Below, one piece after another: positions 5,139-38,319 of a DNA stretch of 43,406 nt. This DNA comes from Thiobacillus sp. (GTDB taxonomy: Bacteria; Pseudomonadota; Gammaproteobacteria; Burkholderiales; Thiobacillaceae). The stretch is from contig JADFDN010000009.1 in NCBI GenBank assembly GCA_018262815.1, positions 1 through 43,406 on the forward strand, read 5' to 3'. A program made the translations under genes and the position numbers. Each line of letters starts with the position of its first letter. Within the stretch, counting starts at the first letter, position 1. The notes beneath the pieces are model-generated. The model searched no databases. It was given only the letters and a program-made list of their open reading frames with translations, and was not told where the DNA came from.

Positions 5139-6649
5139 GGGCGGCCTCCCAGCACGGCGTCGATGTAAGCCTGCGGTTCGAGCAGTTGCGCGGCGGTGGC
5201 GGTCGCGTAATCGGACACGGGGCCGGCCCAGAGCACCAGGCCGAACCCGAGCAGCAACAGGCCGGCGGCGGGCAGCCAGTCGGCCGTGCCCGGCGCGGGC
5301 AGCTTCTCGGTGGTGGAGTGGGTGCGATAGAACAGCAGGCTGCCGCTTCGTGCCAGCGCGATCACGCCGATGAGTCCGGTGGCGAGCACCGCACTCCACA
5401 GCCACGTCAGCCAGGGCGATTCGAGCGCGGCGCGCAGCAGCATGAACTTGCCGAGGAAGCCCGACAACGGCGGCAGGCCGGCCATCGCGATCGCGGCGGC
5501 GAAGAACAGCCCGCCGAGGATGGGTGCGCCGGGCATTGCCGGGCCGGGCTCGAAACGGTCGGCGCGCTCGCCGCGGGCGCGGCCGATCGGGTCGGCGAGC
5601 AGAAACATGGCCGCAGTGGCGAGCGTGGTGTGCGGCAGGTAATAGAGGCCGGCGGCGAGGCCGTCGACGCTGTCGAGTGCGAAGGCGGCGAGCAGGGTGC
5701 CGACCGACGCGATCACCAGGTAGGCAATCTGCTGGCGCAGCGCGGTGGCGGCGACGGCGCCGAGCATGCCGGCGACCAGCGTGACGAGCGCGAGCGGCAT
5801 CAGCCAGTCGGCGAGCAGGTTGGCCACCGCCCCCGCGTCGGCGCCGAACATCAGACTGTAGACGCGCAGGATGCTGTAGGCGCCCACCTTGGTCATGATC
5901 GCGAACAGCGCGGCGACCGGCGCGCTGGTGTGCGCGTAGGCGGCCGGCAGCCAAAGATGCAGCGGCAGCAGCGCCGCCTTCAGCGCGAACACGCCGAACA
6001 GCAGCAGGCCGGCCGCCTCGACCAGCGCCAGATTCTCGGGAACGGTGCGCGCCAGCTTGACCGCGAGGTCGGCCATGTTGAGCGTTCCGGTGACGCCGTA
6101 CAGCGTGCCGACGGCAAACAGGAACAGCGTCGAGCCGACCAGGTTGATCACCACGAAATGCAGCCCGGCCTTGACGCGCAGCCTGCCGCCGCCGTGCAGC
6201 AGCAGGCCGTAGGAGGCGAGCAGAAGGATCTCGAAGAAGACGAACAGGTTGAACAGGTCGCCGGTGAGGAAGGCGCCGTTGAGGCCGAACAGCTGCAACT
6301 GGTACAGCACATGGAAGTGGCGGCCTTTGACATCGTCGCCGCGCAGCGCATGCAGCAGCGCGAACAGCGCCACCAGCGCGGTGGCCATCAGCATCCAGGC
6401 CGCGAGGCGGTCGGCGACCAGCACGATGCCGTAGGGCGCATCCCAGTTGCCCAGCTTGTAGACGAGCTGGGTGCCGTCGCTGGCCGTGGCCAGCAGGGCG
6501 AGCGCGAGCGGCACCAGCGCCGCCGTTGCGGCGAGACTGATGCCGCGCTGAGCCGCGAGCGGCGCGCTGCGCAGCGTCAGCAGCACGATGCCTGCGACCA
6601 GCGGCAGCAGCACCGGCAGGATGGGCAGATGCATGGCGAGGCCGTTCAT
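5135..6649 (-). CDS. mnhD: Na+/H+ antiporter subunit D (NuoM/N-like)
   Basis: A 504-aa polytopic protein with about 14 helices, homologous to complex I subunits NuoM/NuoN. It has the family's proton-path features: FFEILLLASYGLLL with a membrane glutamate, then FALKAALLPLHLWLPAAYAHTSAPVAALFAIMTKVGAYSILR with the conserved Lys residues and P-rich HxW turn. The start at 6649 forms an ATGA overlap with mnhC; a second ATG at 6634 is possible but less consistent with coupling. It is one of the two large ion-translocating subunits of the Mrp complex. Confidence 0.94.
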   Translation of the reverse strand: MNGLAMHLPILPVLLPLVAGIVLLTLRSAPLAAQRGISLAATAALVPLALALLATASDGTQLVYKLGNWDAPYGIVLVADRLAAWMLMATALVALFALLHALRGDDVKGRHFHVLYQLQLFGLNGAFLTGDLFNLFVFFEILLLASYGLLLHGGGRLRVKAGLHFVVINLVGSTLFLFAVGTLYGVTGTLNMADLAVKLARTVPENLALVEAAGLLLFGVFALKAALLPLHLWLPAAYAHTSAPVAALFAIMTKVGAYSILRVYSLMFGADAGAVANLLADWLMPLALVTLVAGMLGAVAATALRQQIAYLVIASVGTLLAAFALDSVDGLAAGLYYLPHTTLATAAMFLLADPIGRARGERADRFEPGPAMPGAPILGGLFFAAAIAMAGLPPLSGFLGKFMLLRAALESPWLTWLWSAVLATGLIGVIALARSGSLLFYRTHSTTEKLPAPGTADWLPAAGLLLLGFGLVLWAGPVSDYATATAAQLLEPQAYIDAVLGGRP

Positions 6650-6986
6650 CGCGCCGCGTCCTCGTCGCTGTGCATGCCGTCGACATGGTCGTTGCCGAGT
6701 TCGGCGCGCGCCTTCAGCGCGAGCACGATGACGAAGGCGGTCATGCCGAAGCTGATGACGATGGCGGTGAGCACCAGCGCCTGTGGCAGCGGGTCGGTGT
6801 ATGCAGCGGCGTCGGAAATGACCGGCGGCACGCCGATCGCGAGACGTCCCATGACGAACAGGAACAGGTTGACCGCGTAGGACAGGAAGGTGAGGCCGAG
6901 CACCACCGGGAAGGTCTGCCCGCGCAGCGCGAGGAACACGCCGCTGGCGGTGAGGACGCCGATGACGAGGGCGATGAGCGCTTCCA

Positions 6987-6987
<1 letters not shown>
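6646..6987 (-). CDS. mnhC: Na+/H+ antiporter subunit C (NuoK-like)
   Basis: A 113-aa protein with three helices, homologous to NuoK/MnhC. It carries the conserved GLTFLSYAVNLFLFVMGRL segment and DPLPQALVLTAIVISFGMTAFVIVL. The C-terminal tail is acidic (HSDEDAAR). The start ATG at 6987 shares one base with the upstream TGA stop, and its own stop overlaps the mnhD start, so it is coupled on both sides. Confidence 0.94.
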
Positions 6988-9785
<2,798 letters not shown>

Positions 9786-36682: not shown

Positions 36683-37072
36683 ATGTCCCATTACCATGCC
36701 GTCGTCTGGCTCGACCACAACGAAGCCCGCGTCATGCACATCAGCCCGGACGACGTCGAGAAGTCGGTGGTTCATCCGGCCAATCCGCCGCGTCACCTGC
36801 AGCGTAAGCGCGGATCGGTCAGCGGCAGCCGCCAGCCCGAAGACCAGCAGTACTACCACGAGGTCGTCGAGGCGCTGGCAGGCGCCCAGGAAATCCTGAT
36901 CGTCGGCCCCGGCCATGCCAAGCTGGAACTGATCAAGCATATCCATTCGCACGACCACGACGTGGTGGAGCGCGTGGTCGGCATCGAAACCGTCGACCAT
37001 CCCGGCGACGGCCAGCTGGTTGCCTATGCCCGCAAGTACTTCGTGGCCAAGGACCGGATGCTGTCGCAGTAA
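36683..37072 (+). CDS. eRF1-domain-3-like small protein (annotated elsewhere as translational machinery protein)
   Basis: A 129-aa soluble, His-rich protein. It starts SHYHAVVWLDHNEARVMHI, continues with a region DQQYYHEVVEALAGAQEILIVGPGHAKLELIKHI and ends TVDHPGDGQLVAYARKYF. This matches a widespread bacterial family related to the third domain of eRF1/pelota, judged from memory of the family. Its function is not established. AAAGGA lies 6 nt before the ATG. It has its own -10-like site and a strong intrinsic terminator, so it is a monocistronic unit rather than part of the acs operon. Confidence 0.8.
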   Translation: MSHYHAVVWLDHNEARVMHISPDDVEKSVVHPANPPRHLQRKRGSVSGSRQPEDQQYYHEVVEALAGAQEILIVGPGHAKLELIKHIHSHDHDVVERVVGIETVDHPGDGQLVAYARKYFVAKDRMLSQ

Positions 37073-37226: not shown

Positions 37227-37253
37227 TCAAGTCTGTCGAAAAACCGTCGTTAC
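37227..37253 (+). promoter_or_regulatory. candidate sigma-28 (FliA) promoter
   Basis: TCAAGTCT (37227-37234), an exact 11-nt spacer, then GTCGTTAC (37246-37253). The E. coli FliA consensus is TAAAGTTT-N11-GCCGATAA, so 11 of 16 positions match with the correct spacing. The predicted start (about 37260) falls just ahead of the riboswitch core, which supports the call. Confidence 0.45.
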
Positions 37254-37261
37254 TGTTGATA

Positions 37262-37340
37262 AGCCGTACAAGGGCAAATCCGTCGCGAGGCGGAGACGCA
37301 ATGCTTCCGGTCTGGGGAATCCAGATGGCGGGGCTGCCAG
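37262..37340 (+). ncRNA. cyclic di-GMP-I riboswitch (GEMM-I)
   Basis: The aptamer core is readable in order. GGGCAAA (37272-37278) comes first. Then a 6-bp stem TCCGTC/GGCGGA carries a GCGA tetraloop (37279-37294; GNRA loop as required for docking). Next come GACGCAA (37295-37301), GC with TTCCGGTCT (37303-37313), a second stem TCTGG/CCAGA (37311-37325) and the GATGGCGGGGCTGCC element (37324-37338). These are the conserved blocks of the Vc2-type c-di-GMP aptamer, including the A in GACGCAA that stacks between the two guanines. The outermost helix is unclear, and the expression platform is not resolved: no terminator or obvious anti-Shine-Dalgarno lies before the next gene. Confidence 0.88.
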
Positions 37341-37403
37341 GCAAGCCAAATGGCATGGTGCGTCGCTGCCCGGATTGCGGCAGGCTTAGAAACAGGAGGT
37401 CCC

Positions 37404-37592
37404 ATGTCGCATCAATGCCCGTTCCCCGTCCGCTCGACCGATAACCGCTGCAGCTACCGAACCGGGAGTGCGCCGGGATTCACCCTGTGTCTGGCCCTGG
37501 TCGCCGCCCTGTCGTGTTATGCCGGTTTCAGCCACGCAGCGCCGGTCCAGACGCCGGCCCCGGGCCTCCACGGCACCGCGCTCCCGCGCTGA
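37404..37592 (+). CDS. small exported peptide under riboswitch control
   Basis: A 62-aa ORF with a strong AGGAGG 4 nt before ATG 37404. Residues about 1-23 form a basic/polar lead, about 24-40 a hydrophobic core (GFTLCLALVAALSCYAG), and SHA at 43-45 followed by AP looks like a signal peptidase I site. The mature part would be only 17 residues, Pro-rich (APVQTPAPGLHGTALPR). No homologue is recognised. An intrinsic terminator lies 81 nt downstream, so it is the only gene on this transcript. It is small, so coding status rests on ribosome site, signal-like profile and context. Confidence 0.65.
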   Translation: MSHQCPFPVRSTDNRCSYRTGSAPGFTLCLALVAALSCYAGFSHAAPVQTPAPGLHGTALPR

Positions 37593-37673
37593 TTGCGCCG
37601 CCGGCCAGTCGGTGTGCCCCACCGCACGCCAGACACGGCTGTCGGCCAGGCAAGTGTTGCTTTGCAGATGCAG

Positions 37674-37695
37674 GCGCCCTTCGGGGCGCTTTTTT
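37674..37695 (+). terminator. intrinsic terminator of the riboswitch transcript
   Basis: GCGCCC (37674-37679) pairs with GGGCGC (37684-37689) around TTCG, followed by six T residues (37690-37695). It is in plus-strand orientation and 5 nt from the convergent FMN reductase stop. Confidence 0.88.
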
Positions 37696-37700
37696 CATGT

Positions 37701-38276
37701 TCAGCCGGCCGTGCGGACGAGGGCCGTGCTGGTGTTCACCAGGTCCAGCACCAGCGCATGCAGGCGTGCCGGCGATTTGAGCGCACCGTTCTCTTCGTCG
37801 AATGCCTTGTCGGCGTGCGACAGCGAGAATTGCCCGGGCAGCACCAGCACGCCCAGCGTGTTCAGGATCTGCCGCAGGTGCGGCAGCATGCGCATGCCGC
37901 CGAACGTCCCCGGCGATGCGGCAAGGATGGCGGCGACCTTGTTCTGGTAGGGCACCAGTCCCGACTCGCCCTGCCATTCGCGCGATACCCAGTCGATCGT
38001 GTTTTTCAGCAGCGGCGGCACCGAACTGTTGTATTCGGGACTGGCGATCAGCAGGGCGTCATGCGCCTTGAACAGCGCCTTCAGACGCTGCGCGTTGGCG
38101 GGCAGGCCGTCGCGCGCTTCGAGGTCCTCATCCATCAGCGGCAGCGGATAATCGGCGAGATCGATCAGCGTAACTTCGCCGCCTGCGGCGCGCGCGGCCT
38201 CCACGGCGGCGTGAATCAACTTGCGGTTCCACGAATCGCGTCGCAGGCTGCCGGCAAAGGCGAGAATCTTGGGCAT
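37701..38276 (-). CDS. NAD(P)H-dependent FMN reductase
   Basis: A 191-aa flavodoxin-fold protein with the FMN phosphate loop AGSLRRDSWNRKL (about 9-21) and SPEYNSSVPPLLKNTIDWVSR (about 78-98), plus SPGTFGGMRMLPHLR. These are the YieF/ChrR/SsuE-like NADPH-dependent reductase motifs. The substrate (quinone, azo dye, chromate or free flavin) cannot be told from sequence. AAGGA lies 7 nt before ATG 38276. It is 43 nt downstream of the pirin gene on the same strand and likely co-transcribed. This gives a redox-responsive pair. Confidence 0.9.
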   Translation of the reverse strand: MPKILAFAGSLRRDSWNRKLIHAAVEAARAAGGEVTLIDLADYPLPLMDEDLEARDGLPANAQRLKALFKAHDALLIASPEYNSSVPPLLKNTIDWVSREWQGESGLVPYQNKVAAILAASPGTFGGMRMLPHLRQILNTLGVLVLPGQFSLSHADKAFDEENGALKSPARLHALVLDLVNTSTALVRTAG

Positions 38277-38319
38277 GGGGGATCCTTGCATCAAAAAGGT
38301 TCGAATTGTATCGGTTGCG

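Follow-up and report, generated by a model that had tools for sequence, protein, structure and literature searches.

In autotransporters, the extended signal peptide region (ESPR) is a long n-region within signal peptides that precede different passengers. A long n-region in a signal peptide common to different passengers is also what we observed in a small gene of a Thiobacillus sp., which lies within a window of 43,406 nucleotides (the whole stretch of DNA that was analysed); the likeness is one of description, no autotransporter is present at this locus, and the unusual feature here is an ORF that contains the leader only. The gene is preceded by an aptamer that resembles the c-di-GMP-I riboswitch (RF01051) in sequence, fold, covariation and placement upstream of a gene for an exported protein, but the leader-only ORF is the only gene of the unit. 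Another short riboswitch-bearing transcript is merRNA, a c-di-GMP-riboswitch RNA of Bdellovibrio bacteriovorus that is reported, in the available excerpts of the study concerned, without a conserved ORF (PMC3627812). The same excerpts describe a FliA motif similar to a promoter-like box in our window, and FliA-type promoters appear in them as widely used in this organism, being assigned to many attack-phase genes in a table where merRNA itself is unmarked (PMC3627812). In contrast to merRNA as presented there, the window has a conserved and constrained ORF, and aptamer and ORF are separable; the FliA-type promoters beside the Bdellovibrio riboswitch RNA are best regarded as a parallel, not as evidence for the window. 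Among the matches listed in open-licence PMC text there was no report of such a riboswitch with a leader-only gene, and nothing relevant on c-di-GMP riboswitches or their regulon in Thiobacillus. The small gene described below is real, conserved and associated with a riboswitch; it is what remains of a protease gene that lost its body, namely the leader, and its signal-peptide region is still constrained.

Riboswitch, promoter box and reading frame

The predicted c-di-GMP-I (GEMM-I) riboswitch aptamer occupies positions 37263 to 37341 of the forward strand, where the RF01051 covariance model scores 54.1 bits (gathering score 35; E 6e-8). This is the sole Rfam match that reaches its gathering score across the 43-kb window, and no further RF01051 match was found in the own genome (a 2.5 Mb assembly, about 82% complete), while 76 of 100 related genomes have a match, 75 of them above the cut-off. 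The well-conserved GEMM-I aptamer claimed by an earlier sequence-only reading of this DNA, for which the Rfam scan had been suggested as a check, is thus borne out. Across 24 aligned related aptamers (15 preceding short ORFs and nine preceding the S8 subtilase genes discussed below) the AAxGGCAAA and GxCGCAA blocks are invariant, and RNAalifold predicts 20 pairs, nine of which have both partners changed in one or more sequences, i.e. compensatory change keeps the helices. One such double change is present in both the window and G008, a near relative, and another distinguishes the two. A short scan of the window ranked the GGC-variant model RF03167 above RF01051, yet the variant was rejected, its score of 47.1 being under its own gathering score of 59 and the diagnostic base being canonical: the window reads GACGCA where the RF03167 consensus has GACGCG, i.e. 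A and not G at the position as we read it. The aptamers of the S8 copies in G029 and G079 reach 59.4 with RF03167 against the gathering score of 59, and that of G029 carries the canonical A nevertheless.

Between the aptamer and the Shine-Dalgarno sequence lies the region where an expression platform would be expected (37342 to 37393, forward strand). When the leader regions of 30 loci were folded with versus without the aptamer, no consistent change was obtained, neither a terminator switch nor one that sequesters the Shine-Dalgarno sequence, whose accessibility is mixed among the 30 loci, and no terminator-like site was found between the window's aptamer and the ORF.

Upstream of the aptamer, and ending nine bases before it, a conserved box of the form TMAAGTYY-N11-GTCGTTAC, in the window TCAAGTCT-N11-GTCGTTAC (37227 to 37253, forward strand), resembles a sigma28 promoter; its first base is the position at which the sequence-only reading had begun the unit. 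The sigma28 (FliA) consensus is TAAAGTTT-N11-GCCGATAA. A loose form of the box pattern is present at 31 of 39 leader loci, and a 29-base pattern built from these loci has one match each in G000 and G072 at up to three mismatches. Searching five genomes with TMAAGTTT-N11-GCCGATAA at up to two mismatches gave 29 sites versus seven for a reversed control, whereas at up to one mismatch two genomes had no site. An ORF follows 25 of the 29 sites (assigned by script), many without an evident flagellar role; all five genomes have a site upstream of a gene that by eye is CheY-like, and three of the five have one upstream of a DUF1631 gene (assigned from a Pfam scan of one member) that itself lies behind a GEMM-I aptamer. 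In the window the -35 element and the spacing fit sigma28 and the -10 element, GTCGTTAC, fits only partially, and because of this deviation we can only infer a sigma28-like promoter for the unit. In many loci the -35-like and -10-like boxes enclose a near-palindrome of the type GTCGAAA..TTCGTCG (within 37227 to 37253 in the window), which is possibly an operator. GEMM-I aptamers also precede the DUF1631 gene (about 740 aa; L058, L071, L142) in many Thiobacillus genomes, in several of which that gene has a canonical sigma28-like box, as well as a 99-aa DUF1540 gene (L057, L093) and genes for PEP-CTERM-type proteins (by eye; L063, L108). From their sequences, the GEMM-I genes of Thiobacillus would form a c-di-GMP/flagellar regulon.

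The Shine-Dalgarno sequence AGGAGG (37394 to 37399) and the 62-aa leader-only ORF (37404 to 37592), both on the forward strand, agree with the short ORF with a strong ribosome-binding site described before. A mechanical ORF list opens the same frame further upstream, at an ATG at 37350 that would give 80 aa; the ATG at 37404 is the likely start because of the Shine-Dalgarno sequence and because an in-frame stop lies 15 to 21 bases 5' of the homologous ATG in four of 14 related short forms checked. Any further sense ORF of 50 aa or more in the unit overlaps this one in another frame, and the next gene, an FMN-reductase-like gene on the reverse strand (37701 to 38294; every NCBIfam similarity under cut-off), is convergent, so that there is indeed no other gene on the transcript. 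The intrinsic terminator (37672 to 37695, forward strand) comprises a hairpin at 37672 to 37691 and a T-run. Its score alone is weak evidence, since the unit has one terminator-like site and shuffled sequences average 0.7; it gains from the recurrence of 22 terminator bases, with at most one difference, directly 3' of the S8 gene in six of the eight S8 loci that were compared. This identity is itself modest evidence because the hairpin type is common, a similar one lying also 3' of the 129-aa gene in G077.

With the 62-aa ORF as query, matches were found in 24 of 60 relatives, all of them Thiobacillus, and the database yielded 77 short relatives (E <= 7.9e-12). A leader profile matches 37 of 56 Thiobacillus genomes (36 without the marginal G024, 17.9 bits), none of its matches containing an internal stop. 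Position counts were made on 76 of the 77 short relatives that are in register, P0061, which has an inserted residue, being left out. The mean frequency of the majority residue is 85% in the n-region (residues 2-24) and 82% in the hydrophobic part (25-42), but 27% in the tail (47-62), where mean entropy is 3.21 bits. Hydropathy peaks over 19 residues starting at residue 25, Ser or Gly stands at position 43 in 72 of 76 relatives and Ala at position 45, likewise, in 72; by rule, n-, h- and c-regions and an A-x-A-like site of a Sec signal peptide are present, with the cleavage site predicted. The signal-peptide profile noted in the sequence-only reading therefore holds, and the conserved leader (codons 1-46, 37404 to 37541, defined by profile A1) is predicted to be an unusually long signal peptide, followed by an unconserved tail (37542 to 37589) that makes up most of the mature peptide proposed there.

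In an unrelated family of 113 exported proteins, the same leader opens eight (N-termini read by eye; a regular expression caught six), and most others start with a short, ordinary-looking signal peptide; since the leader replaces the ordinary signal peptide in these eight, it acts as an exchangeable export module. Proteins of the MRGGF-motif family that carry the leader instead of an ordinary signal peptide are found at L085 (G019) and L111 (G032) and as P0114-P0116, P0118, P0120, P0132, P0195 and P0196; one member of this family that was scanned had no Pfam or NCBIfam match.

A subtilase gene at the same locus

In related genomes the leader opens a long protein that contains, in the G010 copy that was scanned, a Peptidase_S8 domain (PF00082, 176.8 bits), a Fervidolysin-type prodomain and Big_7 domains (Pfam). 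The gene order is shared: an acetyl-CoA-synthetase-type gene, the 129-aa gene (36683 to 37072, forward strand, in the window; present in 44 of 56 genomes), the leader gene and the convergent FMN-reductase-like gene (present in 54 of 56), although not all markers lie on every contig. The agreement of the neighbouring genes shows that the S8 and short forms occupy one locus. An S8 subtilase gene is found there in 13 of the 56 Thiobacillus genomes, 11 of these genes being complete (605-617 aa) and the contigs of G023 and G026 ending within theirs. Twelve of the 13 open with the same leader of about 46 residues, which has diverged in the S8 copy of G011 and is replaced by a different one in that of G034, and three of the 13 genomes also carry a short copy. 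The leader with only a short tail (44-88 aa) is found in 20 genomes, the window's included, and a 152-aa truncation in G003, which we counted outside these 20 here and together with them in the parsimony analysis below. In 11 genomes the locus is empty, in four it holds a PEP-CTERM-type ORF (by eye), and in seven its state could not be assigned. Where the S8 gene and a separate short-leader gene occur together, they lie in tandem (L102 in G029, L156 in G079 and L115 in G034), with a PEP-CTERM-type ORF (6279-7127) between them in L102. In other species (L191, L192, L193 and L194) an ORF of this type (215-349 aa) replaces the leader gene at the same chromosomal site.

The window shares with the Thiobacillus S8 subtilase (Fervidolysin_NPro, Big_7) the leader, the locus, the promoter box, the aptamer and the terminator, and lacks the prodomain, the catalytic domain and the Ig domains. 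The 62-aa ORF has no Pfam family at E <= 0.01, hence no Peptidase_S8 domain, and apart from the terminator no S8 remnants were found 3' of it. Nor did the S8 body (G010 query, E <= 1e-10; G010 itself matched as positive control) have a match in any of nine short-form genomes searched, five of which are at least 90% complete and one of which, the window's own, is 82% complete. Nine of the 77 short relatives retain, by pattern, the start of the prodomain, a piece of an Ig domain or C-terminal S8 residues, and for at least these nine the origin must therefore be an S8 gene that suffered a deletion or a truncation. By comparison with its relatives, the window ORF is what is left of an S8 subtilase gene, the N-terminal leader, after deletion of the body, an origin that the sequence-only reading had missed. 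On a tree of four neighbouring genes from 52 genomes, in which many deep nodes have support below 70, the S8 and short states are interleaved, and parsimony (Fitch) requires 10 changes over 34 taxa compared to a mean of 10.6 for shuffled labels; this interleaving implies either frequent loss or movement of alleles between lineages.

The pairing of riboswitch and short ORF, which the sequence-only reading had suggested looking for in related genomes, holds in part. RF01051 matches at 15 of the 20 short-only loci, and at the other five (G020, G028, G030, G031 and G069) not even a threshold of E <= 1 yields a c-di-GMP-I match, which is likewise the case for the second copies in G029 and G079. Degraded stretches of the aptamer can be recognised by eye in G020, G028 and G030. 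In G031 (L109) and G069 (L189) most of the aptamer is, again by eye, deleted internally while the promoter box, the Shine-Dalgarno sequence and the ORF are kept. The ORF thus survives at five of 20 short loci without a recognised riboswitch, which had also escaped the earlier reading, and use of the peptide therefore cannot depend on the aptamer everywhere.

Constraint on the leader and the tail

We compared three sister pairs of short-form genomes (G000/G008, G068/G016 and G072/G005). In the leader, 5 of 299 nonsynonymous (N) and 15 of 106 synonymous (S) sites differ, and in the tail 17 of 144 and 13 of 60, i.e. pN/pS is 0.12 for the leader and 0.55 for the tail, with 0.06 and 0.09 for the neighbouring 129-aa and FMN-reductase genes, respectively. 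Leader and tail differ at N sites (Fisher's test, p 1.3e-5) but not at S sites (p 0.28), N and S differ within the leader (p 3.8e-6), and the N:S ratio differs between leader and tail (p 0.026). A fourth pair, G012/G021, was kept out of the sum because its tail consists of prodomain sequence; its leader shows N 0/99 and S 2/36, and its tail N 5/95 and S 1/31. The excess of synonymous change that the sequence-only reading had proposed to look for is therefore found, and it is found in the leader: as a protein the leader is constrained, whereas the 17-residue mature peptide, which had been put forward as a new effector, is the least conserved part and much less constrained. One has to consider that a low dN is favoured by the way the relatives were gathered, namely through similarity of the leader.

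The constraint is specific to the frame. When nine short-form genomes are compared in all 36 pairs, pN/pS is 0.19 in the annotated frame, and third positions hold 523 of 792 differences; the other five frames give 1.58, 1.63, 1.71, 0.32 and 2.59. The value of 0.32 belongs to reverse frame 1, and a translated antisense ORF was rejected, since in our reading this ratio is low because third positions are largely shared with the sense frame. When all leaders are pooled, pN/pS is 0.326 for 21 short forms (without G065 and G069) and 0.447 for 12 S8 leaders (without G003 and the S8 copy of G034), with synonymous sites near saturation. Single pairs, picked by us, give 0.05, 0.11, 0.24 and 0.30 between S8 leaders, 0.74 between the S8 leader of G007 and the truncated form of G003, 0.23 for the second copies in G029 and G079, and 0.24-0.28 for short forms without a recognised aptamer (G020, G031 and G069), a weaker constraint than the 0.12 above. 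These ratios do not clearly set the short forms apart from the S8 forms as the more constrained group, and some of the constraint may be inherited from ancestors that carried the S8 gene, given the scattered states and the low support of deep nodes.

Frameshifts in the ORF, named beforehand, for loci that keep the riboswitch, as an observation that would count against it, are rare in relatives and not absent: P0076, of which the ORF only was examined, looks frameshifted after residue 38, and the ORF of G030, a locus with no recognised aptamer, stops at residue 44. In addition, the leader of G065 lacks its first residues. The peptide must be dispensable, since the locus is empty in some genomes and occupied by the PEP-CTERM-type ORF in others. 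Where the ORF survives, it is probably translated and useful, as its leader is constrained in its reading frame.

Alternative explanations and implications

Of the explanations we considered, we lean towards one in which the window holds the remnant of a riboswitch-associated S8 subtilase gene whose leader peptide is under selection in a role of its own. The ancestral unit would have been a gene for a secreted S8 subtilase behind a c-di-GMP riboswitch. Synteny with the relatives shows that the promoter box, the aptamer, the ribosome-binding site, the first approximately 46 codons and the terminator were kept, and that the prodomain, the catalytic domain and the Ig-like domains were lost. Transcription would start from the sigma28-like promoter in flagellated cells and be tuned by c-di-GMP; the leader, which the substitution pattern shows to be under purifying selection and which is most likely translated, would most likely be a small peptide, exported or located in the inner membrane, with its N-terminus inside and its tail, presumably filler, outside or cut off after A45. 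That it has its own job is probable because the front end of the gene still looks protected by selection. It is also conceivable, though rather unlikely, that the signal peptide itself is the selected output, a membrane-retained or released, c-di-GMP-regulated signal or regulator in motile Thiobacillus that already existed within the protease precursor and was freed each time the body was lost. A leader kept only so that the transcribed mRNA yields a harmless, cleanly exported product, which avoids toxicity or jamming of Sec, seems quite improbable to us: signal-peptide anatomy and a cleavage-like site persist next to a drifting tail, and the leader does serve as an export module in other proteins, but the n-region, whose detail is not required for export, is as conserved as the hydrophobic part.

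Alternatively, the gene may simply be dying, the protease having been lost recently and repeatedly so that the leader seems conserved for want of time to decay. We consider this unlikely. In its favour are the interleaving of S8 and short states on the tree, the several short forms in which deletion or truncation can be seen, the frequent loss of the whole locus, the damaged leaders of G030, G065 and P0076, and the aptamer that goes unrecognised at a quarter of the short loci. Nevertheless, tail and leader have the same past, which means that a lack of time cannot explain why only the leader was spared, and in a four-species short clade (100% support), as well as in G000/G008, the tails are homologous and N changes are concentrated in them; the pair G012/G021 points in the same direction. 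Likewise against it, a search for leader codons at 15 leaderless loci of the same site had no match at E <= 1e-3. Finally, the sequence-only reading had raised the possibility that the RNA itself is the product, as proposed for merRNA, with the ORF incidental. The unit is indeed short, terminated and riboswitch-containing, and FliA-type promoters were found in the Bdellovibrio study too; still, the constraint follows the reading frame, merRNA is without a conserved ORF in the excerpts concerned, and the ORF is kept where no aptamer is recognised, which together make an RNA product very improbable.

If the reading we favour, a selected leader left over from a protease gene, is correct, this would be a riboswitch whose sole coding output is a signal-peptide-like microprotein under selection. 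Thiobacillus offers a natural series, from the protease through the protease with a short copy, the short form only and the short form without a riboswitch to the empty locus, and along this series the roles of the riboswitch, the leader and the enzyme come apart. The function of the leader can be tested in Thiobacillus thioparus DSM 505, a type strain in culture that has a 72-aa form (locus L171). More generally, the locus suggests that selection can keep a "signal peptide" without its cargo.
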